A stretch of 64,000 bases of DNA from Methylonatrum kenyense. Lineage in GTDB: Bacteria; Pseudomonadota; Gammaproteobacteria; Nitrococcales; Aquisalimonadaceae. The stretch covers positions 124,001-188,000 of the forward strand of contig NZ_JALPKO010000004.1 of assembly GCF_023195885.1 (NCBI RefSeq). Reading direction: 5' to 3'. Numbering within the stretch: position 1 is the first letter of the stretch; each line of letters opens with the position of its first letter. The position numbers and the translations under genes are program-made. The notes beneath the pieces were generated by a model. That model did no database searches, was not told the DNA's origin, and was given only the letters and a program-made list of their open reading frames with translations. Below, one piece after another: positions 35,285 to 58,870 of the stretch.

Positions 35285-36646
35285 TTACCTCGGACGGAGT
35301 CTGTAGCGGTCCAGCATTCGATACAAGGTGAGGCGCGAGATGCCAAGGAGCCGTGCGGTCCGCGAGACATTGTTCTGCGTGTAACTCAGGGTAAGGCGAA
35401 TCGCGTCTCGCTCCGCTTTTTCGCGCACTTGTTGAAGCGTTGGCATCTCGTCATAACCGTCATCGTCCAGGCCAAGGTCTATCGGCTGCAGTACGCGGTT
35501 CTCCGACATTACGATGGCCCGTCGGATTCGGTTTAGCAGTTCGCGGACATTACCCGGCCAGTCATGCGAGAGCATGGCTTCCTCGGCACGCGCGCTGAAT
35601 CCCCGGAGGGGACGATCGGCATCACAGCGAAATCGCCGAAAGAAATAATGCGCCAGCAACAGGATATCCGTATTCCGTTCCCGCAGCGCAGGAAGAGTGA
35701 GTTCCAGCACATTCAGGCGATAGAAGAGATCCTCCCTGAAGCGCCCCGCCTCGACTGCCGCGGTCAGATCGACATGTGTGGCAGCGATGATACGTGTGTC
35801 CACGCGTATTGATCGGGTGGAGCCAAGTCGTTGCACAGAGGACGTTTCGAGAAACCGTAGCAGATTGACCTGCTGATCCAGAGGAAGATCGCCGATCTCG
35901 TCGAGAAACAGAGTCCCTCCGTCGGCTGCCTCGATACGGCCGATGTTCCTGCGGTCGGCACCTGTAAAGGCGCCACGCTCGTGGCCAAACAGTTCAGACT
36001 GTACAAGTCCGGAGGGTAATGCCCCGCAGTTGACGACCACGAGTGGCTCGCGCGCGCGATCAGATTCTGCATGTATCGCCTGCGCGGCCAACTCCTTGCC
36101 AGTGCCGCTTTCCCCGCGAACGAGCACCGGGGCTCCGTTATTGGCTGCTTTGTGGATCTGCTTGTTGAGCTCCCGCATGCGGCGGCTACGGCCAACCAGC
36201 GTGAGCGTCTTGGGTTCCCTTCTGCTCTCGCCGCGTCGTAGTTTGATCATTCCGTCGGCCCGCCCGAGAGCGACGGCGAGTCGATCAGCATCGACGGGGA
36301 GGGTATGGAAGTCGTAGAACGACTTGCTGATCAACCGGCGGACCTGTGGATCATCGAGCTCCTCCGGCAAGACGAGGGCAATCCACTCGATTTCATCCGT
36401 CAGAAACGCGCCGCGGTCGAGAGCATCCAGGATTGAGGGATCGCTGCGAAAGGGTTCGACCAGGCCCACCGAGACATCGGAGTTGTTGAGCTTTTCCCTG
36501 AGTACGGACTCGGTTGTTGCACTCTGGATGGTCCAGCCGTTCGACAGTATCGATTGCAATCGAGCGGCCGCGCGCTCATCGCCGCCAACGTACAGTGCGG
36601 TTCTCGTTGCGACAGATGAATCGTGGCCGGCGGAATCTGGCGACAT
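35285..36646 (-). CDS. Sigma-54-interacting transcriptional activator with degenerate receiver (VpsR-like)
   Basis: Start at 36646, where GAGAGG lies 5 nt upstream; ATG 36676 and GTG 36742 are alternatives. The 453-residue protein has an N-terminal receiver-like fold (16-130) in which the usual acidic cluster is replaced by VGGDE and the phospho-acceptor position by Glu (GLVEPF), so phosphorylation is unlikely. YDFHTLPVDADRL is as in VpsR-type regulators. The AAA+ domain has Walker A GESGTGKE (178-185) and the sigma-54 loop GAFTGA (225-230). A Fis-type helix-turn-helix closes the protein (NVSRTARLLGISRLTLYRML). It lies downstream of the pilus operon on the same strand and is a natural candidate to drive its sigma-54-like promoter. 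Confidence 0.9.
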   Translation of the reverse strand: MSPDSAGHDSSVATRTALYVGGDERAAARLQSILSNGWTIQSATTESVLREKLNNSDVSVGLVEPFRSDPSILDALDRGAFLTDEIEWIALVLPEELDDPQVRRLISKSFYDFHTLPVDADRLAVALGRADGMIKLRRGESRREPKTLTLVGRSRRMRELNKQIHKAANNGAPVLVRGESGTGKELAAQAIHAESDRAREPLVVVNCGALPSGLVQSELFGHERGAFTGADRRNIGRIEAADGGTLFLDEIGDLPLDQQVNLLRFLETSSVQRLGSTRSIRVDTRIIAATHVDLTAAVEAGRFREDLFYRLNVLELTLPALRERNTDILLLAHYFFRRFRCDADRPLRGFSARAEEAMLSHDWPGNVRELLNRIRRAIVMSENRVLQPIDLGLDDDGYDEMPTLQQVREKAERDAIRLTLSYTQNNVSRTARLLGISRLTLYRMLDRYRLRPR

Positions 36647-36764
36647 ACTGCCTCTCTTGTCGCTTTTTGGCGACATTTGATTGTTCTCTAGCCTCAGGAT
36701 TTCTCTCGCCGATTTCAAGCGCCTGACGAACAGCGAGTCCACGGGGCAGCGTTGCCGAGCACTG

Positions 36765-43606: not shown

Positions 43607-44158
43607 TCAGACAGAGTCTTCAGGCACTTCGTCGTACTGTTCCTTGTCCTGGAAGGAACGGTAGATTCCCGGCGTCGTGAGGTTGCGTATTGCGGTCAAC
43701 CAGTACTGGATCCCCGCCATGGCCAGGCCAATCGGTGCCACGGCGTAGGGAATCCAGAGCGGGATGGAGAGGGCCGAGGAGGTGCGCCCACGACGGTAGG
43801 TGCCTTCGACGTAGCCGAAGGCGTGCCAGGCCAGATAGAACATCAGGGCGCCGGTAAGCAGGCTGATGCTCACCAATACCGCCTTCCGCGGTGTGCCGGT
43901 GAGCTGATCGTAGAATGCCGACATGCTGATGTGGCGCGCCTTGCGCACACCGTAGCCAATGCCGGCGAAGGTGATGATCACCATGGACAGGCGGGTCAGT
44001 TCGACCTGGCCCGGGATGCCGACGCCGAACAACTGGCGCCCGAGGACATGCAGGATCAGCAAACCGGCCAGGAAAAGTATCGTTCCGCCGACCAGGAATT
44101 CCTCGATATGCTCCGTGCCCCTGTCCAGCCAGCCGAGTATCTTCCCGCCCATGGCCAT
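43607..44158 (-). CDS. TRAP transporter small permease (DctQ family)
   Basis: About 183 residues with four helices (near 22-42, 60-78, 98-118 and 140-160) and the DctQ signature GIPGQVELTRLSMVIITFAGIGYGVRKARHISM. The start may be 44158 or 44152; both are within reach of the GGGCGGAG element. It precedes the large permease by 57 bp. DctQ and DctM form the membrane part of the TRAP importer. Confidence 0.88.
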   Translation of the reverse strand: MAMGGKILGWLDRGTEHIEEFLVGGTILFLAGLLILHVLGRQLFGVGIPGQVELTRLSMVIITFAGIGYGVRKARHISMSAFYDQLTGTPRKAVLVSISLLTGALMFYLAWHAFGYVEGTYRRGRTSSALSIPLWIPYAVAPIGLAMAGIQYWLTAIRNLTTPGIYRSFQDKEQYDEVPEDSV

Positions 44159-44721
44159 CTCCGCCCTCTGAACCGTTCGAAAATGATGCCGCAGCCCAAC
44201 GCGACACGATTCGTTTGTAAGAAAACGCTGACTCAAGCCCGCATCTGCACCCGAGACAGGTTTCGGTTATCTGGCAAGGCGCAGTGTCGATTCGGTAGCT
44301 ACCGGGCCGGTGGCGCAACGCCGACAGGGACCAAAACGGCCGTGCCCTTCGGGTTGTGCCGGGATTTTCCCGACAGCTGTATTGCGCTGCTCGACCGTAG
44401 AATGACCGCGGCGCCGCGCAGCACCCCTTGCCCCGGAAAAGTTCGGGTTCCCACGCAGGCGTGCGACGAAATATTAGCGTTTCCTTGATTTGACAGTACC
44501 GTACTTTTTCCGGGCTGAACACCGCGTAGACAGGGCGGAAGCCTGTGTTAAGGTTGAATTGAGATCGTCATGTGGCGGTTGCAGATGGCGCTTAATCAGG
44601 GCCATGCGCGGGCGCTGGCGGTGGGCAAGAATCAACCGTCTCTCAATTCGGTTTCCTGCCACCCGGAAGCGCAGTGCGAAAGCATCGTCATACATCAAAA
44701 GACACACTCCAGGAGGTTCTC
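44159..44721. other. 563-bp divergent promoter region of the TRAP genes
   Basis: Lies between the divergent permease and binding-protein genes. Visible: a TTGACA hexamer at 44490-44495 without a good -10 partner, overlapping an 11-bp dyad AGTAC-C-GTACT (44495-44505) that could be an operator. No ORF with a ribosome site was found. Confidence 0.5.
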
Positions 44722-45744
44722 ATGCAGTGGCGTTATGGCGTAATCGCAGCATCCCTTTTTGCTCTGGCAGCCTGTTCCGATGCCCCGGATGACGGGACGC
44801 AGACCTGGGACTTCGGCCTGGAGGAAATCGAAGGCAGTGTGCAGCATGAATATGCGGTTCGGTTTGCCGAATTGGTGGAGGATCGGACCGACGGCGCGGT
44901 CAACGTTCGCATTTATCCTTATGGACGTCTCGGTGATCTGACCGACATCTACGATCAGGTGCAGGACGGCGCCATCCAGCTTGCGTTTGGCTCGGGTTTC
45001 CTCGGCGGCACCGTGCCGGAGAGCCAGCTGTTCAGCCTTAACTTCATTCTCAGTGAAGACGAGCACCTCAACACCCGGGTGTTGAACTCCGATGCGTTTC
45101 TGAAGAGCGAGGATTTCCAGGATTCGTTCCGTGACCGTGATCTGCATCCGATCGCGGTTGTGCCCGAGGGCTGGCAGGTCTGGACTGCGAACAAGGAGAT
45201 CCGCACGCCCGAGGACTTCAGCGGCGTCGCAATCCGTACCATGGACAATCGGCTGCTGCGTGAAACCTACCGGGCCTACGGTGCCGACCCCACCACGATG
45301 GAATACGGCGAGATCTACAGCGGGCTTCAGCTCGGCCAGATCGATGGCAACATCCAGCCGGTGTTTGCCCACGAGGAAATGGATTTCTATCAGGTGCAGG
45401 ACTACATGATCTTCGCCAACCAGGCGCAGTTCATTGCCACCTTCATGGCTAATCGCGACTGGTACGACGGTCTGTCCGACGAGCACAAGCAGATGCTCGA
45501 CGAGGTCGCGGCCGAAATGGTGGATTACATCCATGATGTTCAGGTGCGCCTGAATGAGGAGCGCATGGAGACAATTACCGGTAACAGCGACATCGAGGTG
45601 ATCGAGCTGACCTCGGACGAACGCGAGGCGTTCCGCGAGCTGAGTATTCCGGTGCGCGATGTATTCGTGGACATGACCGGGGATCGCGGCGATCGCCTGC
45701 TGAATCTGCTGCTCGAGGAAATCGAGAGCGCTCGGGAGGGTTGA
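44722..45744 (+). CDS. TRAP transporter solute-binding lipoprotein (DctP family)
   Basis: A 340-residue protein whose ATG follows AGGAGG by 5 nt. The signal ends in the lipobox LFALAAC with lipid-anchored Cys18, unusual since most DctP proteins are free in the periplasm. The DctP fold is shown by HEYAVRFAELVEDRTDGAVNV, YPYGRLGDLTDIYDQVQDGAIQL and a ligand-carboxylate-clamping arginine region (VAIRTMDNRLLRETYRAYGA). It would deliver an organic acid to the divergent DctQM permease. A strong terminator follows. Confidence 0.92.
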   Translation: MQWRYGVIAASLFALAACSDAPDDGTQTWDFGLEEIEGSVQHEYAVRFAELVEDRTDGAVNVRIYPYGRLGDLTDIYDQVQDGAIQLAFGSGFLGGTVPESQLFSLNFILSEDEHLNTRVLNSDAFLKSEDFQDSFRDRDLHPIAVVPEGWQVWTANKEIRTPEDFSGVAIRTMDNRLLRETYRAYGADPTTMEYGEIYSGLQLGQIDGNIQPVFAHEEMDFYQVQDYMIFANQAQFIATFMANRDWYDGLSDEHKQMLDEVAAEMVDYIHDVQVRLNEERMETITGNSDIEVIELTSDEREAFRELSIPVRDVFVDMTGDRGDRLLNLLLEEIESAREG

Positions 45745-45780
45745 TAAATTTCCCGGCTTGAGCCGTAACGATAAGTATTT

Positions 45781-45815
45781 GCCGGGACGCTGCGAGAGCA
45801 GCGTCCCGGCTTTTT
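45781..45815 (+). terminator. Intrinsic terminator of the dctP-like gene
   Basis: Perfect 13-bp arms (GCCGGGACGCTGC, 45781-45793; GCAGCGTCCCGGC, 45798-45810) with a GAGA tetraloop and TTTTT. Among the strongest terminators in the window. Confidence 0.95.
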
Positions 45816-45831
45816 CCGGAGAAGAAGAAGC

Positions 45832-46392
45832 ATGCCGACAATCGCTGAATCAACGGTGTTGGTGACCGGGTCGGTTGCCCCCGATTTCCGGCTCAGGGAG
45901 GCCGAGGGTGGACTCGTCGCACGGGACGATTTCGCCGATTCCGATGCACTGCTTGTCGCCTTTATCTGCAACCATTGCCCCTACGTTGTTCATATTAGTT
46001 CGGCCCTGGCGAGCTTCGCGCGCGAATTCATGCCCCGGGGACTTTCCATTGTCGCAATCAACTCGAACGATGCGGTGCGTTATCCGGCCGACAGTTTCGA
46101 GGCGATGGTCGAGGAAAAGCGGCGCGCGGGTTATCCGTTTCCCTACCTGCATGACGAGACCCAGCAGGTGGCCAAGGCCTACGGGGCGGTCTGCACGCCG
46201 GATCTTTTCCTGTTCGATGGCGAGATGAAACTTGCTTACCGGGGACGATTCGACGAAAGCACACCCGGCAACGACAAGCCTGTGAGCGGTGATGACCTGC
46301 GTGATGCCGTGACTGCCCTGTTGACGGGCAAGCCACTGCCCGAAAACCCGTCTCCAAGCATGGGCTGCAGCATCAAGTGGAAAGAGGGGTGA
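45832..46392 (+). CDS. Thioredoxin-like/AhpC-TSA family protein
   Basis: A 186-residue cytoplasmic protein with a thioredoxin fold. The active site is in AFICNHCPYVVHI, giving C-N-H-C in place of C-G-P-C, a form common in a peroxiredoxin-like thioredoxin family. AINSNDAVRYPADSFEAM and YGAVCTPDLFLFDGEMKLAYRGRFD (cis-Pro loop) are typical. It ends with a cysteine motif MGCSIKWKEG, also conserved in the family. It starts 17 bp after the TRAP terminator with no signal peptide. Function is probably peroxide or disulfide reduction. Confidence 0.88.
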   Translation: MPTIAESTVLVTGSVAPDFRLREAEGGLVARDDFADSDALLVAFICNHCPYVVHISSALASFAREFMPRGLSIVAINSNDAVRYPADSFEAMVEEKRRAGYPFPYLHDETQQVAKAYGAVCTPDLFLFDGEMKLAYRGRFDESTPGNDKPVSGDDLRDAVTALLTGKPLPENPSPSMGCSIKWKEG

Positions 46393-46434
46393 TACAGGAC
46401 TGTTTCCGGTTTGGGGCGGAGGCCTGTTCACGCC

Positions 46435-46450
46435 GTCACGTCTGCGTGAC
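46435..46450. promoter_or_regulatory. Inverted repeat upstream of the sigma-54 promoter
   Basis: GTCACG-TCTG-CGTGAC, perfect 6-bp arms, 52 bp before the -24 box, as expected of an enhancer site. Its right half GCGTGACAG (46444-46452) recurs at 49168-49176 upstream of the alcohol dehydrogenase promoter. Confidence 0.55.
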
Positions 46451-46502
46451 AGAGATATCAGATAAACCGGCCTTCAGGGTCGGTGGAACGGCTCGGGGAA
46501 GA

Positions 46503-46518
46503 TGGCATTTAAATTGCT
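46503..46518 (+). promoter_or_regulatory. Sigma-54 promoter
   Basis: TGGCAT-TTAAA-TTGCT matches TGGCAC-N5-TTGC(A/T) with one mismatch and has the invariant GG and GC at correct spacing. Predicted start near 46529. No coding gene begins before the terminator at 46624. Confidence 0.75.
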
Positions 46519-46528
46519 TGACCAGAGA

Positions 46529-46654
46529 TTGAAGGCACCGCGGGTCCTCCTGTCGGAGGCTTCCGGAGGATGGTCCGGTGGCTGTTTTCTTCAAGCTTCT
46601 TCTGAGCCGGCAAACGGCTTTTCGAGGGGATGATCTTTCATCCCCTCTTTTTTT
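46529..46654 (+). ncRNA. Candidate sigma-54-dependent small RNA or attenuated leader
   Basis: The boundaries come from the sigma-54 promoter and the intrinsic terminator; the product would be about 125 nt. The 5' half folds into GC-rich stems with alternative pairings: UCCUCC with GGAGGA, or CCUCC-UGUC-GGAGG plus CCGGA-GGAUGG-UCCGG, the latter exposing a GGAUGG loop. A single-stranded pyrimidine-rich linker follows (UUUUCUUCAAGCUUCUUCUG, 46585-46604), then a small stem AGCCG/CGGCU and the terminator. The linker complements the receptor ribosome site. It could be a trans-acting RNA, or the 5' part of a receptor transcript that terminates early. No known RNA family recognised. Confidence 0.6.
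46624..46654 (+). terminator. Strong intrinsic terminator without a preceding gene
   Basis: Perfect 10-bp arms GAGGGGATGA (46624-46633) and TCATCCCCTC (46638-46647), tetraloop TCTT, then seven Ts. It is 232 bp beyond the nearest upstream stop codon and 328 bp before the receptor start. Confidence 0.92.
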
Positions 46655-46937
46655 GCATGTCAGTACCGAAATGATGGGCAAGCTCCCGTTTCCGGCAAGG
46701 CGTCGCCAGTTGGGCTATTATCGATAAATCGCTCTTTGGAATCACTGCAAAAAGCGAGGCGGTCGAGCCGTTACGTGAGTGCCACTGCGGATGCATTGGC
46801 CGTTTTCGGGCTCCTGGTGGTGTTCCCGCGGTGTGATTGCTGCGATCCGGGGCAGGCGACACACACCGCCCGATAATCGTTGTTTGTCGGCTCGCAAGGC
46901 GCCGACAGGTCGTCCGGATTTTCCGCCGGAAGTCCGC

Positions 46938-46964
46938 AATACAAGAAAGCTAATACAAGAAAGC
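46938..46964 (+). repeat. Tandem 14-bp repeat in the receptor leader
   Basis: AATACAAGAAAGC occurs at 46938-46950 and 46952-46964, immediately before the GAAGGAG ribosome site. The A-rich AAGAA units resemble Hfq/Crc-type binding motifs, but this is only a resemblance. Confidence 0.6.
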
Positions 46965-46981
46965 GAAGGAGAAGCTTCCCG

Positions 46982-49054
46982 ATGTGTCTCTATCCTCGAA
47001 CCCTCTCGGCAGTTGCCGTCGTTTTGATTGCAGGTGCAGTGGGTACCGCAGCCGCAGAATCAGTCCGCCTGGAACCCATCACCGTGACCTCGCCCCGTGT
47101 CGAGCGGGATATCACCGAAACGCCGCAGGCCGTAAGCGTGATCGAACCGGAGGACATCCAGCAGGGCCGGCAGGGCCTGCAACTGGACGAGTCGATCAAC
47201 CGTGTGCCCGGCGTGTTTACCCAGAACCGCTACAATTTCGCGCAGAACCTGCGGGTTTCCATCCGCGGTTTCGGTGCCCGGGCGCCGTTCGGGATTCGCG
47301 GTATCCGCGTGCTGGTGGACGGCATCCCGGAAACCCTGCCCGACGGCCAGTCCCAGGTGGACGCCATTGATCTCGAATCCGTGGACCGTATCGAGGTAAT
47401 ACGGGGGCCGTCATCGGCCATCTATGGCAACGCCGCCGGCGGGGTCATCGACATCACGACCATGGAAGGGCCGGATGAGCCCTACGCCGAGATTCGTACC
47501 ACCTTCGGCAGCGACAATTTCCAGCGCTACGGCGTGCGCGGCGGCGGCCGGGTCGGCGACTGGGCCGGCCATATCAGCGCGTGGGAGCTCTCCTATGACG
47601 GTTATCGGGAGCAGAGCGAGACGCGCAAGCGACTGGTGAACACCAAGGGTTCCTACGATATCGACGAACAACGTCGACTCACTGCGGTGTTCACGGCACT
47701 GGATCAGCCAAAAGGTGAGGATCCAGCGGGGCTGAGCCGTGAACAGGTCCGTGACGACCGGAGGCAGGCTTCCGGCCCGGCGGAGACGCTTGATGCAGGG
47801 CAACGGGTTCGTCAGCAACGGTTAGGTGTCATTTACGAGGATGCCGGAAGTTTGCCGGGTACCGTTACGGTCCGCGCTTTCTACACCAATCGCGATTTCA
47901 GGCAACAATTGCCATTCCCGCCGGCCATCGTGACTCCTGGGGGGCCTGTTTCGGCGCCGAGCCTCATTCGCTTCGACCGAGATTTTTACGGTGTCGGCGT
48001 CGAGTATTCGGACGCGGATAATCTCGGAGCGATCCCGATCCGTTACACCGCGGGCGTCGAGGCAAATTTTCAACGTGATTCTCGCCGAAGATGGAACGTT
48101 TTCGGTACCGACGGCACTCGTGATGACCAGACTCAGCAAGCTCTAGAGAGTGCGGAGACTGTTGGTGTATTCGCGCAGAACGATTTCCTGCTGACGGACC
48201 GCCTGACCGTCACGCTTGGCGGCCGCTTCGATCGGCTGCGGCTGAAGATCGATGATCGGCTTGGTGATGGTGCGGCTTCCGGACGGGAGTCCTTCAGTGA
48301 GTTGAGCGGAACGGCGGGCCTGTCTTACAGGTTCCTGCCACAGCACACGTTTTACGCCAGCGTCGGAACGGCCTTCGAAAGTCCTTCATTCACCGAATTC
48401 TACGACCCCACCGAACCGGGCGAGGGATTTGATCCCGGACTTGATCCGCAAAAGGCGTTGAACTACGAAGTCGGGCTCAAGGGTTTCCTCGGCGAGAATG
48501 CGCGATACGAGTTGACTGCGTTCACTGTGGAAACACGGGATGAGATCGTGCAGGTAATGAGTGAGCCGGATCGATTCGATAACGCCGGGCGCACACGGCG
48601 TTACGGGGTCGAGGCGGGGTTGGAATATTTCTTTACCCCCCGCCTCAGCGCGTCCGGTTCTTACACGTGGTCTGATTTCCGTTTCCGCAGTCTGGAGAAT
48701 GCGGACGGAGACAGCTTCAGGGGTAAGCGTCTTCCGGGGCTGCCGCGACACGCCTTCTTCGGCGAGTTGGCCTGGCGCGAGCCAACCGGTTTCTATGCCG
48801 TTGCCGACACACTGTTGGTCAGTCATGTGTATGGCGACAACGCCAACGATGATCGCGTCGCCGGTTACGGCGTCGTCAATGCACGCGTGGGCACGACGCA
48901 GCAGGTCGGTGCAGTGGAGTTCGAAACCTTTATTGCAGTGAATAACATCCTGAACAAAGAATACATTGAGAATGTGCGTGTGAATTCAGCGCCGAATTTC
49001 CTTGAGCCCGCCCCGGAACGCAACATGTTCGGCGGCGTACGCGCCCGCTTCTGA
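46982..49054 (+). CDS. pqqU: TonB-dependent outer-membrane receptor, PqqU/YncD-like
   Basis: A 690-residue receptor: signal peptide (ending near GTAAAE), TonB-box region (EPITVTSPR), plug domain and a 22-strand barrel ending in GGVRARF with a terminal Phe. The plug sequence NRYNFAQNLRVSIRGFGARA and GIRGIRVLVDGIPETLPDGQ closely follows what I recall of E. coli YncD (PqqU), which takes up the cofactor PQQ. A PQQ-dependent dehydrogenase is the next gene, supporting the role. The ATG at 46982 follows AAGGAG by about 10 nt. It is probably controlled by the sigma-54 leader or RNA upstream. A general siderophore role cannot be excluded. Confidence 0.85.
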   Translation: MCLYPRTLSAVAVVLIAGAVGTAAAESVRLEPITVTSPRVERDITETPQAVSVIEPEDIQQGRQGLQLDESINRVPGVFTQNRYNFAQNLRVSIRGFGARAPFGIRGIRVLVDGIPETLPDGQSQVDAIDLESVDRIEVIRGPSSAIYGNAAGGVIDITTMEGPDEPYAEIRTTFGSDNFQRYGVRGGGRVGDWAGHISAWELSYDGYREQSETRKRLVNTKGSYDIDEQRRLTAVFTALDQPKGEDPAGLSREQVRDDRRQASGPAETLDAGQRVRQQRLGVIYEDAGSLPGTVTVRAFYTNRDFRQQLPFPPAIVTPGGPVSAPSLIRFDRDFYGVGVEYSDADNLGAIPIRYTAGVEANFQRDSRRRWNVFGTDGTRDDQTQQALESAETVGVFAQNDFLLTDRLTVTLGGRFDRLRLKIDDRLGDGAASGRESFSELSGTAGLSYRFLPQHTFYASVGTAFESPSFTEFYDPTEPGEGFDPGLDPQKALNYEVGLKGFLGENARYELTAFTVETRDEIVQVMSEPDRFDNAGRTRRYGVEAGLEYFFTPRLSASGSYTWSDFRFRSLENADGDSFRGKRLPGLPRHAFFGELAWREPTGFYAVADTLLVSHVYGDNANDDRVAGYGVVNARVGTTQQVGAVEFETFIAVNNILNKEYIENVRVNSAPNFLEPAPERNMFGGVRARF

Positions 49055-49084
49055 CCCGGGTAAAGCTTCGCCTGCGTCGTCACG

Positions 49085-49109
49085 GCCCCGCCACTGGCGG
49101 GGCTTTTTT
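49085..49109 (+). terminator. Intrinsic terminator of the receptor gene
   Basis: Arms GCCCCGCC (49085-49092) and GGCGGGGC (49096-49103), loop ACT, then six Ts. Separates the receptor from the dehydrogenase transcription unit. Confidence 0.93.
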
Positions 49110-49236
49110 GTGCCGTATCGGTTTTGTCACAACCACGGTGTTACGCCCGACGAAAGCTGCCCCGGTGGCGTGACAGTTGCCGTGTCGCCCGTTTCCCAAG
49201 CCGAAAAAAACGAGGAGGGGCGCGGTTTTCAATGAG

Positions 49237-49252
49237 TGGCATAGACCTTGCC
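49237..49252 (+). promoter_or_regulatory. Sigma-54 promoter of the quinoprotein alcohol dehydrogenase operon
   Basis: TGGCAT-AGACC-TTGCC: correct GG/GC spacing, with mismatches at -22ish and at the final W. Predicted start near 49263, about 75 nt before the ATG. Upstream half-sites TGTCAC (49125-49130) and GTGACA (49170-49175) form a widely spaced dyad that may bind the AcoR-like activator encoded at 55260. Confidence 0.7.
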
Positions 49253-49337
49253 TATTGCTCGTCGTGGCTCTTCATGGCCCGCGGCGGCCTACTACCGCCT
49301 TCACCACTATAAAGACAGAGGTTGGGAGGATACTCCA

Positions 49338-51128
49338 ATGCGTTTTACCCGAACCCGCAGCATGATGGCTGCCGGCGCGTCGTCCGCGCTGATGGCCGCC
49401 GCGCTGACATCCGGCACTGTTGTCGCATCTGATAACAACGTCGTCACGCAGCAGATGATCAACGAAGATGCCATGCATACGGACCGTGTCACGTCCTATG
49501 GCATGGGTCCCCATCACCAGCGTTACAGTTCGCTGGATCAGATCAACCACGACACCGTGAGTGGCCTGGTTCCGGCCTGGGCCTTCTCCTTCGGCGGTGA
49601 GCAGCAGCGTGGCCAGGAAACCCAGGCGCTGATCCACGAAGGGGTGATGTACATTACCGGCTCCTATTCCCGGATGTGGGCGCTGGACGCCAAGAGCGGC
49701 GAGATGCTCTGGTCGTACGAGCATCGTCTGCCAGACGGCATCTCGCCGTGCTGCGACGTGGTCAATCGCGGCGCTGCCATTTATGACGATCTGGTGATCT
49801 TCGGCACGCTGGACGCCATGATGGTCGCCGTGGACCGGGAAACCGGCCGTGTCCGCTGGCGTGAAAAAATCGCCGATTACCAGGCCGGCTACTCCTACAC
49901 CGCTGCGCCGCTGATCGCCAACGACCTGCTGATCCACGGTAACTCCGGTGGTGAGTTCGGTGCTGTCGGCATGGTCACTGCCCGTGATCCGCGCACCGGC
50001 GAGATGGTCTGGGAACGTCCGGTGGTCGAAGGCCATGTGGGCACCCTGCCCGACGGTTCGGAATCCATGACCGGCGAACTGAACGCCACTTGGGAAGGCG
50101 AGACCTGGAAACAGGGCGGCGGCGCGCCGTGGCTCGGCGGCAGCTATGATCCGGAGCTGAACCTGATCTACATCGGTACCGGCAACCCGGCACCGTGGAA
50201 CGCCCACGCCCGGCCGGGTGACAACCTGTACACCTCCACCCGGCTTGCGCTGGATGCCGACACCGGCGAAATCGTCTGGCATTACCAGCCGACCCCGAAC
50301 GATCACTGGGACTATGACGGCGTCAACGAAATGGTCCTGTTCGACCTGGACTATGACGGTGAGACCGTGAAGGCCGCGGCTACCGCCGATCGCAACGGCT
50401 TCTTCTACGTGCTGGACCGGGAAAACGGTGCCCTGCTCAGCGCCACGAAGTTCGTCAACGAAGTCAGCTGGGCCGAGGGCGTCGACCTGGAAACCGGTCG
50501 TCCGATCGAAACCGGCAACCGTCCGGGCAACCCGGCGGACACCGAGGGTGACGAAGGCGAGTCCGTGGTCGCGCGTCCGGCCTTCCTCGGCGGCAAGAAC
50601 TGGAACCACATGTCCTACAGTCAGCGGACCGGGCTGTTCTACATCCCGTCCAATGAGTGGGAAATGGAAATCTGGAACGAGCCTGTCACCTACCGTCGTG
50701 GTGCCGCGTTCCTGGGCGCCGGCTTCACCATCAAGCCCGTCTATGACGACAAGGTGGGTGTGATGCGGGCCATGGATCCGAAGACCGGGGAAATCAAGTT
50801 CGAGGTTCCGAACCGTACGCCGCTCTGGTCCAGCGTGCTGACGACCGCCGGTGGCCTGGTGTTCTACGGTACCCCGGAGGGTTACCTGAAGGCCATTTGT
50901 GACGAAACCGGTGAGGAAATGTGGAAGTTCCAGACCGGTTCCGGTGTCGTGGGCCAGCCCGTGACCTGGGAAATGGACGGTGAGCAGTACATCACCGTTG
51001 CATCCGGCTGGGGCGGTGCGGTGCCGCTGTGGGGTGGCGAGATCGGTCCGCTGGTCAGCCACATCACTCAGGGCGGCATGATGTGGACCTTCAAGCTGGC
51101 CGATATCCAAACGGCAGCAGCTCGCTGA
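49338..51128 (+). CDS. pedH: PQQ-dependent alcohol dehydrogenase, lanthanide (PedH/ExaF) type
   Basis: A 596-residue periplasmic eight-bladed propeller enzyme. Start at 49338 follows GGGAGGA; signal peptide ends near VVA. The vicinal disulfide C138-C139 (SPCCDVV) of quinoprotein alcohol dehydrogenases is present. The catalytic base is D325 in HWDYDGVN. Two residues later D327 fills the position that is Asp in lanthanide enzymes (XoxF, PedH, ExaF) and Ala or Ser in calcium enzymes. Tryptophan docking repeats ([26 protein letters not shown]) mark the blades. It should oxidise ethanol-like alcohols and pass electrons to the cytochrome encoded next. A sigma-54 promoter precedes it. Confidence 0.93.
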
Positions 51129-51214: not shown

Positions 51215-51664
51215 ATGATTCATCACCTCAAGCGTGTTTCCGTGGCTGCCCTGGTGTTGGGTGGTTTTCTCTTCTCGGCAGGGACGCTGCATGCTCATGG
51301 GGATGTGAACCCGCAGCCCGTGGAAACCGACGGACTGCCCGAACTCGGTGAATGGAAGGACGAGAACCCCTATCGCGATCTGGAGGGGGACGAATACGAA
51401 CGCGCCATTACGATCGGTCGGCGCGGCTACCAGGCCAACTGTGCGGCCTGTCATGGACTGGGCGGTGTCTCCGGCGGTATTGCCCCGGACCTGCGCCTGC
51501 TCGAGCCCGGATTTGACGATGCGTTCTATGTCGAAAAGGTGCGAAAAGGCGCCCGCGGCATGCCGGCGTTTGATGGCGTGCTTGACCAGGAAGCACTGTG
51601 GGCGATCAAAACCTGGCTGGAAACCATGCATGAGGAAGCGATGGAGCAGCGTTATGGGCGTTAA
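51215..51664 (+). CDS. pedF: Cytochrome c-550, quinoprotein-associated (PedF/ExaB type)
   Basis: A 149-residue periplasmic monoheme cytochrome. Signal peptide to about TLHAHG; the segment PQPVETDGLPELGEWKDENPYR is characteristic of the cytochrome paired with quinoprotein ethanol dehydrogenase. Heme motif CAACH at 76-80, likely axial Met116 (RGMPAF). It takes electrons from the alcohol dehydrogenase toward a terminal oxidase. The 3' end overlaps the next gene by 11 bp. Confidence 0.93.
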   Translation: MIHHLKRVSVAALVLGGFLFSAGTLHAHGDVNPQPVETDGLPELGEWKDENPYRDLEGDEYERAITIGRRGYQANCAACHGLGGVSGGIAPDLRLLEPGFDDAFYVEKVRKGARGMPAFDGVLDQEALWAIKTWLETMHEEAMEQRYGR

Positions 51665-52664
51665 GGGCGCGGTAATCGGTGCGCTCGCTGGCGCAGCGCT
51701 GCTCGGGTCGGCAACTGCATCGGCGGACCGTATGGATGAGATCCGCGACGGTGGCACGCTGAAGATCGCCGTGTACAACGACTTCGCGCCTTATTCCTGT
51801 GTCGGACTGGAACGCGATCTGACCGGAGTGGATGTTGAACTGGCGAACGCACTGGGCGAATCGCTTGGCGTCAACGTGGAATTGTTCGGTTTCAGTGCTG
51901 CGGATTCCATGGATGCGGACCTGGAGCGGCTGATGGACGAGGAGCGGGACGACAGCTGGCGTGACGACTATTTTCCGGATCGTGCCCCGGACCTGATGAT
52001 GCATGTGCCCATCGACCCGGTGTTTGCGGCGCGCAATCCGGAGTACGAGTTCACTGCCGGTTATTTCCACGAGGCCATGGCCGTTCTCTACGACAGGGAA
52101 CAGCTTGGCGAACTGCCGGCGGTGGTGAACACCCCGGATCCGTTCATCGGTGAACGCATCGGCGTGGAAATGTACACCCTGAGCTACGTGTTCCTGACCA
52201 ACGGCTTCGACGGACGCCTGCGCGAGACGACGGTGAACCACAAAAGCGTCGTCGAGGCTGTCGAATCGCTTCTGAAGGGCGATGTGTCTGCCGTAATGGC
52301 GCCCCGCGGCGAGTTGCATGCGGCGCTGGCAACGTTTCCGGAGGTCGAGGGCAGCTTTGGCATGAGCGGGCTTGACGATCTTTTCCGCACGGACCGGGTG
52401 CGCAGCGCCTGGGACGTGGGTGTGGCGCTACAGAGCGGCAATCCCGCCTTGCAGGAGGCGGTGGAGCAGGCCATGGCCGACTTGATCGAGGACGGAACCG
52501 TTGCCGAAATCTTCGGGTATTACGGGATCGCATGGACTGCAGCGCGCGGCGAAACCTCCGCCAATGGTGCCATGCCTGCCGGTGATGGTCCGGCTGGTGT
52601 TGCCCGCCAGGGCCTCGACCGCAGCCGGGTCTGTCGTGCGACCGTGCCTGCGGGGCTGTACTAG
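51654..52664 (+). CDS. Quinoprotein-associated periplasmic substrate-binding protein (family 3-like)
   Basis: A 336-residue protein starting within the cytochrome 3' end. Signal peptide (AVIGALAGAALLGSATASA), then DGGTLKIAVYNDFAPYSCVGLERDLTGVDVELANALGESLGVNVELF, the opening of the family 3 binding fold. Such proteins (PP_2676-like, XoxJ-like) accompany PQQ alcohol dehydrogenases without an ABC transporter and may help mature the dehydrogenase. The C-terminal 40 residues (AARGETSANGAMPAGDG onward) look unstructured. A strong stem overlaps the stop. Confidence 0.88.
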   Translation: MGVKGAVIGALAGAALLGSATASADRMDEIRDGGTLKIAVYNDFAPYSCVGLERDLTGVDVELANALGESLGVNVELFGFSAADSMDADLERLMDEERDDSWRDDYFPDRAPDLMMHVPIDPVFAARNPEYEFTAGYFHEAMAVLYDREQLGELPAVVNTPDPFIGERIGVEMYTLSYVFLTNGFDGRLRETTVNHKSVVEAVESLLKGDVSAVMAPRGELHAALATFPEVEGSFGMSGLDDLFRTDRVRSAWDVGVALQSGNPALQEAVEQAMADLIEDGTVAEIFGYYGIAWTAARGETSANGAMPAGDGPAGVARQGLDRSRVCRATVPAGLY

Positions 52665-52708
52665 GTCCCACGGCGGTGAAGGTATTGCAGCAAAGCCGCC
52701 GTGGGACC
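52664..52708 (+). terminator. Large hairpin after the binding-protein gene
   Basis: Perfect 13-bp arms GGTCCCACGGCGG (52664-52676) and CCGCCGTGGGACC (52696-52708) with a 19-nt loop; the only T-rich stretch is about 20 nt further on. It begins at the last base of the stop codon and probably limits transcription into the relay genes. Confidence 0.7.
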
Positions 52709-52812
52709 GTCCCTGGCGGCTTGTTTATTTTTGGTGGGATGGCGCTGCTCGTGCGGCCTTTGAACCACCGGCATGACAGGACGGGGCGATACAGGTCCCG
52801 CTGGGAGCAGGC

Positions 52813-53571
52813 ATGAACAAGCTGATCTGTTTGATGGCCGGGGTCTGCCTTTGTCTCGTCGGCGTGGCGCATGCGGCGACCGAGGACCCGATGCGATCGC
52901 CGGGTTGGCGAATCATCGAGCAGCGATTCTTTGCCGATCAGACCGTGGTGTTCGATGACAGGGTCCAGGTTCTGGCACCACAGAGTGCCGAGGATACCTT
53001 TGCCGTGCCCGGCTTCGTCCGGGTCGATGGCATCGAGGACATCGAGCGGCTGGTCGTGATTACCGATCTCAACCCCATCCAGCGGGTGCTTGAGATGGAC
53101 ATCAACGACGCAGTCAAGCCTGCGGTCGGATTCCGCTTCAAGGTTCAGCAGCGCACACCCGTGAGGGCTGCGGTGCAGACCAGCGACGGCACATGGTACC
53201 TGGGTGGTACCTGGGTGGATGCCGCTGGCGGCGGCTGTACCGCGCCGAGCACGGCCAGCGCCGATCCGGACTGGGCCAACCGGCTAGGCGAAGTCGACGC
53301 GGCGTTATGGGCCCGTGACGACGGAATCCAGAGGCTGAAGACCCGATTGGTTCACCCTATGGATACCGGGCTGGTGGACAATATCCCGGCCTTTTACCTG
53401 GAGACGCTGGAATTGCTGGACGAGAAGGGCGATGTGCTGACCAGTCTCAGCATCCAGGCCGCCATGTCGGAGAATCCGGTGCTCAGTTTCGACCTCGCCG
53501 TGGACGGCCCTGTCCGACTGCAGGGCAGGGACAATCAGGGCAATCGCATCCGCGGGATGGTGGAGCCGTGA
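52813..53571 (+). CDS. Quinoprotein dehydrogenase-associated SoxYZ-like carrier
   Basis: A 252-residue exported protein. Signal peptide to VAHAA; a SoxY-like domain (about 35-145) with Cys142 in GGGCTAPS, the position of the sulfur-carrying cysteine in SoxY-type carriers; then a SoxZ-like domain (about 155-250; RLKTRLVHPMDTGL, IPAFYLETLELLDEKG). Fused SoxYZ-like proteins of this kind recur next to PQQ alcohol dehydrogenases, with unknown chemistry. It overlaps the metallohydrolase gene by 4 bp. GGGAGCAGGC before the ATG serves as the ribosome site. Confidence 0.87.
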   Translation: MNKLICLMAGVCLCLVGVAHAATEDPMRSPGWRIIEQRFFADQTVVFDDRVQVLAPQSAEDTFAVPGFVRVDGIEDIERLVVITDLNPIQRVLEMDINDAVKPAVGFRFKVQQRTPVRAAVQTSDGTWYLGGTWVDAAGGGCTAPSTASADPDWANRLGEVDAALWARDDGIQRLKTRLVHPMDTGLVDNIPAFYLETLELLDEKGDVLTSLSIQAAMSENPVLSFDLAVDGPVRLQGRDNQGNRIRGMVEP

Positions 53572-54497
53572 TCCGTCTGCTGTTGCTCGGCTTTCTGCTG
53601 TTGCCGGCGTCGGTGCAGGGGTACAGTCTGTCGCCGCAGCAGATTGCGCCCGGCGTCTATATGTTCGAGGGCGCCACCGAGCACTTCACCCGCGACAACA
53701 AGGGCGATATCGCCAATACGGGGTTCATCGTCGGCGAAGACGGCGTGCTGGTGTTCGATACCGGGCCGTCCCGCAACTACGGGCAAAGCATGCGCCTCGC
53801 CATTGCCACGGTAACCGACAAGCCGGTCGTGGCGGTCTACGTCAGCCACCATCATCCGGATCATTTCCTTGGCAATCAGGCCTTCGGGGACGTCCCGATC
53901 CATGCCCTGGAGCACACCATCGAGACGATCCGTCGCGATGGCGATGCGGTTACCGACAGTCTGTATCGCCTGGTGGGTACACCAATGGCCGGCACGGAAC
54001 CGGTTGAACCCGGCGAGCTTGTCACGCTCGGGCGCCAGACCGTTGCCGGCCGGGATATCGAGCTGATTGCCGCCGGCGGGCATGGTGGCGACGGGCATGC
54101 CGACCTGATGCTCCTGGATCACGCCAGCGGCGTGCTGTTCGCCGGCGATCTGGTGTTTCATGAGCGGGCACCGACCACGCCCAATGCCGAACTAGGCCAG
54201 TGGCACGATGCCCTGGACCGGATCGAGGAGCTTGACTTCCGGGTTCTGGTGCCGGGACACGGTCCTCCGGCGCGTGGTCCCGAGCCGGTGCAGCAGACCC
54301 GGGATTACCTCCGCTGGCTGGAGGAGCACCTGCATGAGGCTGCTGCGGCCGGGTTGGATGCCGCCGAGGTCATGTACCTGGATCTGCCCGACCGGTTCCA
54401 GCACATGGGTGTCCTGGAGCAGGAGTATCGCCGCTCGGTGGCGCATCTTTACCCGGATATCGAACGCGCCACGCTGCGTGATGTTCGGGAGCCATGA
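53568..54497 (+). CDS. Quinoprotein relay system zinc metallohydrolase (MBL fold)
   Basis: A 309-residue exported metallo-beta-lactamase-fold protein: GTG start overlapping the previous stop, signal peptide (LLLLGFLLLPASVQG), metal motif HHHPDH at 94-99, a further AGGHGGDGHADLMLL histidine site, the aspartate in GVLFAGDLVF, and the last histidine in VPGHGPPARG. It belongs to a set found with PQQ alcohol oxidation and SoxYZ-like carriers, suggesting a thioester or persulfide substrate on the carrier; that is inference. Confidence 0.9.
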   Translation: MIRLLLLGFLLLPASVQGYSLSPQQIAPGVYMFEGATEHFTRDNKGDIANTGFIVGEDGVLVFDTGPSRNYGQSMRLAIATVTDKPVVAVYVSHHHPDHFLGNQAFGDVPIHALEHTIETIRRDGDAVTDSLYRLVGTPMAGTEPVEPGELVTLGRQTVAGRDIELIAAGGHGGDGHADLMLLDHASGVLFAGDLVFHERAPTTPNAELGQWHDALDRIEELDFRVLVPGHGPPARGPEPVQQTRDYLRWLEEHLHEAAAAGLDAAEVMYLDLPDRFQHMGVLEQEYRRSVAHLYPDIERATLRDVREP

Positions 54498-55099
54498 TTC
54501 TTCGGCAACTGCTCTGTTGCGGTCTGCTGATCGTTGCCGCGCAGTCACTGCATGCTGAGCCGGACAACGACAGCGAGGCGTGCAGCGCAGGGTTTCGTCA
54601 TATCAATGACGAGGGTTACCGCGAAGATTACTACATGGCCCGCACCCCCGATTGCGTTCCCGGTGGGGTGCGCCTGGACACCGGGGGGTTGCGTGAACTG
54701 ATCAGCAACCGTCCGGAAGCGGTATTGATCGATGTCATGGCGGTCCAGGATCACATTCTCCCGGATCTGGAACGGGGCTGGATCCAGGGCGAGGAACGGG
54801 TTTCGATTCGCGATAGCCTTTGGTTGCCCAACGTCGGACTGGGCTGGATCGACGACGAGATCCGGCAATGGTTTGCCGAACGACTGCGCGCCTACAGCGG
54901 CGGCGATTCCGCCCATCCGCTGGTCTTCTACTGTTTGCAGGACTGCTGGATGGCGTGGAATGCGGCGCGTCGGGCGGCGCGCATGGGATACACCGCCGTC
55001 TACTGGTACGCCGACGGCATTGATGTCTGGGCCGAAAAGGGGTTGCCCACCGAGAGGGCGGAACCGGTGCCATTGCGGGGGAATCTTGATGACAAGTGA
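54494..55099 (+). CDS. PQQ-dependent catabolism-associated CxxxCW rhodanese-like protein
   Basis: A 201-residue exported protein. Signal peptide to about SLHAE, then a rhodanese-like fold with VLIDVMAVQDHILPDLERGW and the family motif FYCLQDCWMAWNAARRA, where Cys147, Cys151 and Trp152 are the CxxxCW element. Found repeatedly with quinoprotein alcohol dehydrogenases; role unknown, possibly sulfur or thiol transfer with the SoxYZ-like carrier. Overlaps the metallohydrolase gene by 4 bp. Confidence 0.88.
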   Translation: MILRQLLCCGLLIVAAQSLHAEPDNDSEACSAGFRHINDEGYREDYYMARTPDCVPGGVRLDTGGLRELISNRPEAVLIDVMAVQDHILPDLERGWIQGEERVSIRDSLWLPNVGLGWIDDEIRQWFAERLRAYSGGDSAHPLVFYCLQDCWMAWNAARRAARMGYTAVYWYADGIDVWAEKGLPTERAEPVPLRGNLDDK

Positions 55100-55259
55100 C
55101 GCCGACTCTGAATCCGAGGATAATGGGACTTTGTCATCAAACAGCGCTGCTGCCGGATGCGTCTGGCGCGGTGGCGCCGGGCGCCGCAAGCATGATTATC
55201 GGGGCGCTGTGAGTGACAATCAGCCGACGGCCCGCGAAGAACGGGCTGCAGGAGGAGCC

Positions 55260-57230
55260 ATGGCCCGCACTGACGGAGCCGGACAACTCGAAGCGCCGTT
55301 AAACCGCGCCGCTGCGCCGAACCAACGGCGCGAGGACGGCCTCAGAATCATTCGCCGCTCCTGGGAGCGCTGCAATGCCGAGTACGGCATCGACCGGGTC
55401 GCCAATCACCCGCCGGCAGTTGTCGACAGCCCGCATCTGGTGGAGTCCAAGGACCAGTACGGTGAACTGGTGCAGGTGGCGCGGACCGAGATGCAGAGCC
55501 TGTACCAGCAGATTGCCGGTTCGGGCTATGCGCTGCTGCTGACCGACGCCTGCGGGATGATCCTGGAATACGTCGGCGAGGACAACCTGAAGGGCATGTT
55601 CCGTGATGCCGGCCTGCTGCATGGCGCGATCTGGGACGAGGCCCATGAGGGCACCAACGGCATCGGTACCTGCATCGCCGAGAGTCGACCCGTCAATGTC
55701 TTTCGCGACCAGCATTTCCGTGCCCGGCACCAGCCACTGAGTTGCTCCGGTGCCCCGATCTGGGATCCCGAGGGCAAGCTGCTGGCGGTGCTGGATGCGT
55801 CGACGGTCAGTGCCTCCGATACGCCCCAGAGCCAGTTGCACACACTGGCGCTGGTGACGATGTCCGCCCAGCTGATCTCCAAAACGCGTTTTACCAGCAG
55901 TTTCAGGGATGCGCTGATCCTGCGCTTTCACAGCCGCCCGGAATATGTCGGTCTGATCAATGACGGCGCCCTCGCCGTCTCGGGCGACGGGCGAATCATC
56001 GCCGCGGATCACAACGCCGTCGGCTATCTCGGGGCGCGTGACAGGGTCGAGATTGTCGGCCGGCGGATCAGCGATGTGCTGGATATCCAGCCGACAACAC
56101 TGCGCGAACGCGCCAGTCGGCCGTCGATGCCGTACTGGCCGGTGTACGGGAAGGGTGGCGGTGCCCGGTTCTATGCCACGGTGCTGAGTCCGGCGCGCGA
56201 TGGTCTTCCCGGCGACCGCCTGCTCGCTCGCGAGCAGCGGCCGGTTTCGCGGGCGCAGCAGCGCCGCTTTCCGGCGGACCTGTCCTGCCTGGCGGGGCAG
56301 GATCCAACCATGCAGGAGAACATCGATTGCGCCCAGCGGGTCATGGACCGGGACATTCCGATCCTGCTCATCGGCGAGACAGGCACCGGCAAGGAATTGT
56401 TCGCTCGTGCGGTGCATGAGGCCAGCAGCAGATCGCAACGGCGCTTCGTGGCGGTCAACTGTGCCGCCATCCCGGAAAGCCTGATCGAAAGCGAGTTGTT
56501 CGGTTACAAGCCCGGCGCATTTACCGGGGCCCAGCGGGGCGGCAACAAGGGCCGCGTGCTGGAGGCCGATGGCGGCACGCTGTTCCTTGACGAGATCGGC
56601 GACATGCCGCTGGAACTCCAGACGCGGCTGTTGCGCGTGCTGGAGGAGCAGGAGGTCGTACCCCTGGGTGGTGGTGAGCCGCTGCCGGTGGAGATCAGCC
56701 TGGTCAGCGCCACCAACTCCGACCTGGAAGGTAAGGTGGCCAGCGGCGCATTCCGCGAGGACCTGTACTACCGCCTGAACGGCATCTGCCTGCAGCTGCC
56801 GGCGCTGCGCGAGCGGCATGACATGGCGGAAATCATCCATAACGTACTCGAGCATGAACTCGACAGCCGCGAGATCACGATCAGCCCGGAGGCCTTCAGT
56901 TGTCTGATGGCCTATCACTGGCCCGGCAACCTGCGGCAATTGCGCAACGTGCTGCGCACGGCACTTGCCCTGTGTCGTGATGGCGTGATTCGTCGCGAGC
57001 AGCTAAGCCGCGAACTGCGGGCGCTGCAAGTCGATGCGCGGCCGGAGGCCGACAACGCCGATGGCGCCACTTCGACGCCGGGCAGGCTGGACGCGGCCGA
57101 ACGTGCAGCATTGCTGGCGGAGCTCAATCGCCAGGACTGGAATGTCACGCGCACGGCCGCCGAACTCGACATGAGCCGCAACACCCTGTACCGCAAGATG
57201 CGCAAGCACGGCATATCGCCGCCGGCCTGA
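55260..57230 (+). CDS. AcoR-like sigma-54-dependent activator of alcohol oxidation
   Basis: A 656-residue regulator; the ATG at 55260 follows AGGAGG by 4 nt. Layout: N-terminal segment typical of AcoR (IRRSWERCNAEYGID), a GAF domain (about 65-210, with WDEAHEGTNGIGTCIAE), a PAS-like region (230-310), the AAA+ domain with Walker A GETGTGKE (372-379) and GAFTGA (419-424), then a Fis-type helix-turn-helix at the end (WNVTRTAAELDMSRNTLYRKM). It senses a small molecule rather than phosphorylation. Place and type make it the likely activator of the sigma-54 promoters at 49237 and 46503. Confidence 0.93.
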   Translation: MARTDGAGQLEAPLNRAAAPNQRREDGLRIIRRSWERCNAEYGIDRVANHPPAVVDSPHLVESKDQYGELVQVARTEMQSLYQQIAGSGYALLLTDACGMILEYVGEDNLKGMFRDAGLLHGAIWDEAHEGTNGIGTCIAESRPVNVFRDQHFRARHQPLSCSGAPIWDPEGKLLAVLDASTVSASDTPQSQLHTLALVTMSAQLISKTRFTSSFRDALILRFHSRPEYVGLINDGALAVSGDGRIIAADHNAVGYLGARDRVEIVGRRISDVLDIQPTTLRERASRPSMPYWPVYGKGGGARFYATVLSPARDGLPGDRLLAREQRPVSRAQQRRFPADLSCLAGQDPTMQENIDCAQRVMDRDIPILLIGETGTGKELFARAVHEASSRSQRRFVAVNCAAIPESLIESELFGYKPGAFTGAQRGGNKGRVLEADGGTLFLDEIGDMPLELQTRLLRVLEEQEVVPLGGGEPLPVEISLVSATNSDLEGKVASGAFREDLYYRLNGICLQLPALRERHDMAEIIHNVLEHELDSREITISPEAFSCLMAYHWPGNLRQLRNVLRTALALCRDGVIRREQLSRELRALQVDARPEADNADGATSTPGRLDAAERAALLAELNRQDWNVTRTAAELDMSRNTLYRKMRKHGISPPA

Positions 57231-57717: not shown

Positions 57718-57741
57718 GCAATACACCTTCCTGCCGTCGTG

Positions 57742-58845: not shown

Positions 58846-58870
58846 GGTTGCGGCGCTCCAGGGCCTGTGT

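Follow-up and report, generated by a model that had tools for sequence, protein, structure and literature searches.

Positions 46529-46654 on the forward strand of the window, the whole 64-kb stretch of Methylonatrum kenyense DNA analysed here, very probably encode a stand-alone small RNA and not the leader of an mRNA. The overall model, which we regard as probable on sequence grounds, is of an RNA that would be transcribed from a sigma-54 promoter under an AcoR/BmoR-type activator, would pair with the leader of an aor (tungsten aldehyde oxidoreductase) operon on another contig, and would be co-induced with a PQQ-dependent alcohol dehydrogenase encoded in the window. Promoter, terminator, their conservation, complementarity to the aor leader and one compensating difference are what the sequences themselves display. 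The window's own genome is referred to as G000 and three further genomes of the same genus as G009, G010 and G011. The elements of the RNA locus, all on the forward strand, are as follows.

46435-46450, +: palindrome GTCACGTCTGCGTGAC, locally conserved, candidate enhancer (upstream activating sequence) for a sigma-54 activator
46503-46518, +: sigma-54 -24/-12 promoter TGGCATTTAAATTGCT, exact consensus
46529-46654, +: small RNA gene, 126 nt from predicted start to last T, based on fold and core conservation
46531-46589, +: 5' hairpin domain, which forms in G000, G009 and G010
46596-46609, +: pairing segment CUUCUUCUGAGCCG, the first part a single-stranded linker, the last part entering the small hairpin
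46604-46620, +: small hairpin GAGCCG-GCAAA-CGGCUU, from the fold
46624-46654, +: intrinsic terminator, a perfect 10-bp stem (46624-46647) followed by seven Ts (46648-46654)

A sequence-only reading of this DNA had placed a -24/-12 element before an RNA, and the element proved to be an exact match to the consensus TGGCAYN5TTGCW, the sole one in the 64 kb when both strands were scanned. Counting with the C of the -12 GC sets the predicted start at 46529. Taken alone the motif is only mildly unusual, because at least one exact copy arose in 14 of 100 shuffled windows (mean 0.16) and, once a single mismatch was tolerated, copies numbered 7 in the window versus 4.25. The promoter was found again by alignment in the genus genomes, as TGGCACGTTAATTGC in G010, TGGCACGTAGTTTGC in G009 and TGGCTGGATCTTTGC in G011; the last, the best promoter in G011, stands at another position, close to the RNA core, and departs once from consensus. 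The sigma-54 protein family was present in 13 of 14 family genomes, including the window's own.

The palindrome is centred ~86 bp upstream of the predicted RNA start, with 52 bp between it and the -24 element, and a sigma-54 activator would be expected to bind there. It recurs upstream of the RNA as GTCACATCTGCGTGAC in G010, identical in G011 and in degenerate form in G009. From palindrome start to -24 start the distance is 113 bp in G011 and 67-70 bp in the other three. When matches with at most one mismatch were counted on both strands, it was not enriched genome-wide relative to a reversed control in G000 (26 versus 42), G009 (18 versus 32) or G010 (14 versus 30); G011 had 32 matches versus 26. 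The palindrome was for this reason rejected as a regulon marker and retained as a locally conserved element. Among 16 palindrome-like sites with fetched loci, TGGCA-N6-TTGC within 300 bp was seen at the RNA loci only, and the looser TGGC-N7-TTGC at two further sites (L089 and L092).

The putative transcript had been described as ~125 nt long and ending at a perfect 10-bp terminator with seven Ts, in good agreement with the 126 nt predicted here. A terminator scan of 44000-49500 returned 5 candidates against a shuffle mean of 5.8, showing no enrichment; the terminator is convincing through its quality and conservation, not through count, and it is kept in G009, G010 and G011 with different stems and loops. 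Folded alone, 46529-46656 gave -61.2 kcal/mol, compared with -42.5 (S.D. 3.6) for 200 shuffles (z -5.25), none of which folded as well. The absence of an ORF also held up: no frame of at least 90 aa overlaps 46529-46654, shorter mechanical frames reach 49 aa (+) and 81 aa (-), and the + strand of the G009 and G011 RNAs holds no frame of at least 8 codons.

Three species have a common architecture of 5' hairpin, open CU-rich linker, small hairpin and terminator. In G000, G009 and G010, each sequence being folded singly, the 5' hairpin begins 1-2 nt past the predicted +1 (z -3.6, -3.2 and -3.2). Pairwise identities in this domain are 36/71, 42/65 and 38/70, and those of the less diverged RNA core are 55/64, 59/64 and 55/61. 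The G011 RNA is without the 5' hairpin, with a predicted length of ~67 nt. In predicted folds the linker has an unpaired probability of ~0.5-1.0 in G000, G009 and G010, and the G011 seed is partly paired. The word TCTGAGCCGGCAANCGGC of the small hairpin occurs in 5 of 54 order genomes, namely the four genus genomes and G003, a member of another genus. The T7 tail appears compatible with binding of Hfq or another chaperone.

What decisively argues for a real unit at 46529-46654 is that each of the four genus genomes examined has promoter, RNA core and terminator as one set; conservation of promoter and terminator in close relatives, on which the sequence-only reading had staked its proposal, was thereby borne out. 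As the four genomes are related, this conservation does not amount to four independent events. Alignment resolves three conserved blocks: the palindrome (degenerate in G009), the -24/-12 element, and the 3' core TTCTTCTGAGCCGGCAANCGGCT with the terminator. A nucleotide search of 14 family genomes recovered G000 itself, G010 (E 3e-24), G009 (3e-16) and G011 (8e-7), followed by G003 (E 0.006 over 27 nt), the remaining matches having E of at least 0.01. A covariance model of 59 core positions, built from the four genus sequences and searched in 54 order genomes, was strong only in those four (E 2.6e-19 to 7.6e-17, by construction), with four weak matches in the sister genus (E 2e-4 to 0.018) and all others at E of at least 0.1. 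In a named genome collection, a pattern scan with the core word returned six stretches, three of them from the genus genomes, the Ectothiorhodospiraceae MAGs T3Sed10_218, CSBr16_16 and CSSed165cm_602R1, names that we take to point to soda lakes. Stretches L055-L057, by eye without surrounding promoter or terminator, look like chance. Among 4227 Rfam families, none matched the window at gathering scores; a permissive search (E up to 10, 401 bp) gave only three matches, all far under those scores, and seven loci of relatives gave nothing relevant. With no gathering score reached, the RNA lies outside Qrr, CrcZ and the other small-RNA families of Rfam.

The RNA lies at the edge of a block of genes for PQQ-linked alcohol oxidation; the relevant genes and sites around the RNA and in the block are listed below.

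45832-46392, +: redoxin-like gene just upstream of the RNA, AhpC-TSA family
46880-49054, +: PqqU-like TonB receptor downstream of the RNA (NCBIfam PqqU 413 bits, under the cut-off of 1200), the ORF being drawn from its first start codon, so that the true start may be further in
49169-49175, +: CGTGACA, a half-site in common with the RNA palindrome
49237-49252, +: second sigma-54 site TGGCATAGACCTTGCC, before the alcohol dehydrogenase
49338-51128, +: PQQ-dependent alcohol dehydrogenase (TIGR03075, 765 bits)
55257-57230, +: AcoR/BmoR-like sigma-54 activator (Pfam GAF, Sigma54_activat and HTH_8), exact start codon not set

The redoxin-like gene neighbours the RNA in all four genus genomes, and the receptor gene follows it on the same strand in G000, G009 and G010. 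The latter arrangement favours an alternative that had been offered alongside a stand-alone RNA, namely that 46529-46654 is an early-terminated leader, or attenuator, of the receptor mRNA with a conditional terminator. In our reading the receptor lies outside the RNA transcript: at least 225 bp separate the terminator from the receptor ORF, and no Rfam family, riboswitches included, was matched. G011 retains the RNA core and terminator, the sigma-54 site and the upstream palindrome at a locus from which the receptor/PQQ block is absent, and the genes after the RNA there are convergent and unrelated (cupin- and RuBisCO-like, matched by reading to typed window genes at 57268-58902), so that no regulated same-strand gene follows the RNA in every homologue. 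The closest receptor copy in G011 (64%) is on another contig. The terminator, kept where the neighbours differ, belongs to the RNA itself. Since G011 keeps the RNA without the block, neither a role as receptor-mRNA leader nor a fixed tie to the PQQ block fits this RNA, and of the two options first proposed the stand-alone one stands while the attenuator has become very unlikely. In the window, the receptor/PQQ block sits between the RNA and the cupin; the cupin and RuBisCO-like genes (57268-58902, -; the latter 386 aa, PF00016) flank the block.

A target for the presumed stand-alone RNA emerged from a scan of three genus genomes with the linker complement CTCAGAAGAAGC (at most one mismatch), which gave 23 places including the RNA genes. 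Orthologous matches fell on contig C23 of G000 and contig C85 of G009, in the leader of a 4Fe-4S ferredoxin gene. In G000 this gene opens an operon in which it is followed by an enzyme with AFOR_N and AFOR_C domains, an FAD oxidoreductase, a ThiS/MoaD-like gene (ThiS match of 22.3 bits, just under the cut-off of 22.5) and a small fifth gene that matched no family. This combination of AFOR domains with ferredoxin, FAD and MoaD/ThiS-type partners marks it as an aor operon. Of the 14 family genomes, 12 were found to have the ferredoxin, and the stretch upstream of each was read. The leader site was present in all four genus genomes, as CGGCTCAGAAGAAG in G000 and G009, CGGCCCAGAAGAAG in G010 (one mismatch) and TGGCTCAGAAGAAC in G011, within the longest conserved leader block ahead of the ribosome site. 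Complementarity of each RNA to its own aor leader amounts to 14 nt in G000 and G009, 13 of 14 in G010 (4 + 9, with one uncompensated mismatch) and 13 nt in G011, the longest exact complements being 14, 14, 9 and 13 nt, respectively. At the corresponding place the G011 RNA has AGUUCUUCUGAGCC and the other RNAs have GCUUCUUCUGAGCC; there a G for C in the RNA faces a C for G in the leader, a compensating difference that counts as one event. Of the other eight leaders, G003 has GGCTCAGA and G002 has GGCTCAG; in the remaining six, no GGCTCAG was seen in ~230 nt upstream. Pairing with a distant mRNA is, by these comparisons, a conserved potential of the RNA, and the aor operon, away from the PQQ island, is its best-supported candidate target.

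Specificity was assessed with the pattern GGCYCAGAAGAA, of which the four genus genomes contain 11 copies: four RNA genes, four aor leaders and three others, of which both G000 copies lie in long open frames and the G011 copy has no frame by the filter used. G003 and G002 hold four further copies, none in their own aor leaders, bringing the count to 15 places in six genomes versus 2 for a reversed-pattern control. These figures bear on an alternative that we consider unlikely, in which the conserved 13-14 nt word is a protein's DNA-binding site placed in opposite orientations within the RNA gene and where aor begins, with no RNA pairing. An operator common to both loci would be expected to show conservation too and might vary in step in G011, and the aor copy coincides with the predicted transcription start, a frequent location of operators. 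However, the word marks no regulon, given just three other copies in four genomes with both G000 ones in long open frames, and in the RNA it occupies the open linker and extends into the hairpin that is conserved alongside it.

That the RNA is made from the sigma-54 promoter but chiefly serves other targets, the aor match being minor or a relic, is quite unlikely. Small RNAs usually have several targets, and the scan was confined to the linker word. Against this, the aor leader is, the RNA gene aside, the sole place with an exact GGCTCAGAAGAA in G000 and likewise in G009, and the word is kept in all four genus aor leaders (with one change in G010). In 308 control start windows, which were local, drawn from fetched regions and did not include the true ferredoxin start, the complement to the G000 RNA reached 12 nt once and otherwise at most 10; the single 12-nt match, between the G000 5' hairpin and the G011 redoxin leader, was taken as chance. 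A likeness of the linker to a gene end reading GFF-stop in three genomes (presumably of an aldehyde dehydrogenase) was also set down to chance, being on the wrong strand for pairing. The redoxin gene was rejected as the target: its ribosome site GGAGAAGAAGAAGC in G000 is complementary, but the match is absent from G009 and G011 and shorter in G010. The stretch AGAAGAAGC at 45824-45832, adjoining the redoxin start on its upstream side, matches the linker as a complement in G000 and partly in G010, and may be a local side target.

With the start of the aor mRNA set from a -10-like TACTATG, the pairing site would correspond to ~nt 6-19 of the predicted mRNA, ~88 nt before the AUG. Seed duplexes were calculated at -26.0 (G000), -27.4 (G009), -21.2 (G010) and -28.7 (G011) kcal/mol. 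When full-length duplexes were calculated with internal structure ignored, the best duplex took in the site in G000 and G009, covered it only partly in G010 and left it out in G011. When the site was blocked in silico, accessibility of the ribosome site did not change in a consistent way among the four genomes, and no regulatory sign is predicted on this basis. Opening of the leader was considered, as the site pairs with early ferredoxin codons in G000 and G009 (which would suggest activation), and was set aside since G010 and G011 do not show this. Given the long distance from the site to the start codon, we lean slightly toward activation, by mRNA stability or leader opening, over repression. 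A degenerate GG-N10-GC pair (CGGNN-N6-TTGC) was noted by eye upstream of the aor leader in G000, G010 and G009 (L124, L125 and L126), not in G011; because of this pair in three genomes, additional direct sigma-54 control is possible, and aor might itself have a weak sigma-54 promoter.

The link between the RNA and alcohol oxidation was then considered from the side of the dehydrogenase. Its motif WDYDG aligns with WDFDG of 6zcw and 6zcv and with WDFSG of 1flg, the second Asp being present as in 6zcw/6zcv. An extra Asp in this motif is typical of lanthanide-type PQQ enzymes, and the word "lanthanide" in the sequence-only reading fits on this account. TGGCA-N6-TTGC precedes the dehydrogenase in all four genomes with a close dehydrogenase (G000, G009, G010 and G007). 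CGTGACA lies exactly 68 bp before the dehydrogenase -24 element in G000, G009 and G010; in G007 the closest copy is 142 bp before it. A close orthologous dehydrogenase was not found in G011 (86% complete), and in G007 (88% complete) the dehydrogenase and its sigma-54 site are present while the RNA gave no match, so co-regulation of the two is not general. The proposed tie between the RNA and a PQQ/lanthanide island is thus upheld by position and by the probable co-regulation that the conserved site before the dehydrogenase indicates, and it is loosened by the separability seen in G011 and G007. PQQ helper genes occupy 51215-55096 of the window, with PedF-type cytochrome c550, SoxYZ-like carrier, metallohydrolase and CXXCW protein families.

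The protein encoded at 55257-57230 combines GAF, sigma-54 interaction (AAA+) and Fis-type HTH domains, the AcoR/BmoR-type arrangement; it reached no NCBIfam equivalog cut-off among the best 25 matches listed. BmoR is likewise made up of GAF, AAA+ and Fis HTH domains. Orthologues were found at 87% in G010, 85% in G009, 61% in G004 and 56% in G001, the best in G011 being 45%. This protein is our candidate for driving both RNA and dehydrogenase, and since the dehydrogenase sigma-54 site is conserved and an AcoR/BmoR-type activator lies in the block, alcohol-responsive co-control of the two is likely, as far as sequence can indicate. In G011, without a close activator, a paralogue may have to serve. 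Paralogous AcoR-type activators are encoded in G000 (contig C10, 4235-7761, near a gene whose end we take to be that of an aldehyde dehydrogenase, and contig C12, 307332-315398, near a second PQQ dehydrogenase), and such a paralogue may read the palindrome in G011. A second sigma-54 activator of the window, with a VpsR domain (35285-36742, -), adjoins genes that, on reading, resemble a chaperone-usher fimbria cluster.

Put together, the proposed sequence of events, in which transcription of the RNA, the identity of the activator and pairing in the cell are predictions, would run as follows. Sigma-54 RNA polymerase would transcribe 46529-46654 as a stand-alone, trans-acting RNA, with the AcoR/BmoR-type protein, where present, most likely activating from the palindrome. 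The RNA would stop at its own terminator, exposing the CU-rich CUUCUUCUGAGCCG, which would pair with the first ~20 nt of the aor operon leader. Given the like promoters and the shared half-site, alcohol would induce dehydrogenase and RNA alike, and through the RNA aor expression would be adjusted to the amount of aldehyde produced.

Sigma-54-dependent trans-acting small RNAs, among them Qrr, CrcZ and GlmY/GlmZ, have a sigma-54 promoter, a short length and a terminator of their own, all of which the window RNA shares. Its pairing segment, as in Qrr and GlmZ, is in an open region. Unlike CrcZ, no A-rich CA motifs were seen in its sequence; unlike all four, its proposed target is a tungsten-enzyme operon, and its activator candidate is a GAF-type sensor and not LuxO, CbrB or GlrR. 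BmoR responds to alcohols, and for it an inverted repeat upstream of the promoter has been reported, with the enhancer stated to be 193 bp before the -24/-12 boxes (PMC8899819), compared with the 52 bp that separate palindrome and -24 element here. In Clostridiales, aor is predicted to be under sigma-54 and the enhancer-binding protein AorR at the aor promoter itself (PMC6615313), whereas here sigma-54 would act via an RNA. In gene make-up and AFOR domains the aor operon resembles aorABCDE of Aromatoleum aromaticum, which encodes Fe-S, tungsten and FAD subunits, a MoaD-like protein and a further gene (PMC6365974); the fifth gene here matches no family. No description of an RNA regulator was seen in that paper, whose main text has "promoter" 0 times and "regulat" once. 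The Pseudomonas ped cluster, regulated by AgmR, PedS2-PedR2 and CbrAB, has in common with the window block a PQQ alcohol dehydrogenase, a PedF-type cytochrome and helper genes, and "small RNA" has 0 occurrences in the text of its paper (PMC12997753). Among the titles and abstract openings covered, most subscription papers being outside that scope, no small RNA was tied to aldehyde oxidoreductase or tungsten, nor to PQQ or quinoprotein dehydrogenases; a paper on small-RNA targets has "aldehyde oxidoreductase" once in its text (PMC4666370). The kind of regulator, a sigma-54-dependent trans-acting RNA, is known; within the literature searched, its family, its target and the way it is wired appear to be new.

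The four weak covariance matches in the sister genus (L027-L030, in G003, G001, G004 and G005; e.g. G003 contig C53, 35836-35885) are short RNA-like elements with a GCCGGCAACCGGC-type hairpin and a terminator-like stem. All four have a CTGCTATA promoter-like box, and no -24/-12 element was seen at these loci. They follow the last aor gene in G003, G004 and G005, not in G001; the aor ferredoxin was not found in G001 or G004. CUGAGCC is kept only in G003, with an 8-bp match to its own aor leader, and in G002, which has GGCTCAG in the leader, no such RNA was seen in 300 bp around the end of the aor operon. These elements are possibly relatives of the window RNA rather than members of its family, and perhaps regulators of their own operon. 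Because a possible sister-genus relative sits directly behind the aor operon, the window RNA may have begun as a local aor-operon RNA that later came under sigma-54.

The broadest reading, which we put forward tentatively and hold to be possible rather than probable, is of a new small-RNA family in which an alcohol-sensing sigma-54 activator would drive both a periplasmic, lanthanide-type PQQ dehydrogenase and an RNA that sets the level of a cytoplasmic tungsten aldehyde oxidoreductase by pairing with the extreme 5' end of its mRNA, coupling the two metal-dependent steps. To our knowledge, control of tungsten enzymes in bacteria has been little explored, and we know of no small-RNA/target pair in this group of bacteria. 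If true, a tungsten enzyme would have a small RNA of its own, and the proposal offers a concrete, testable small-RNA/target pair with natural compensating variation in the sequences. Beyond the promoter-level sigma-54 control predicted for aor in Clostridiales (PMC6615313), an RNA layer is proposed here, which suggests that two steps of a single pathway, the oxidation of alcohol and then of aldehyde, are linked by RNA.
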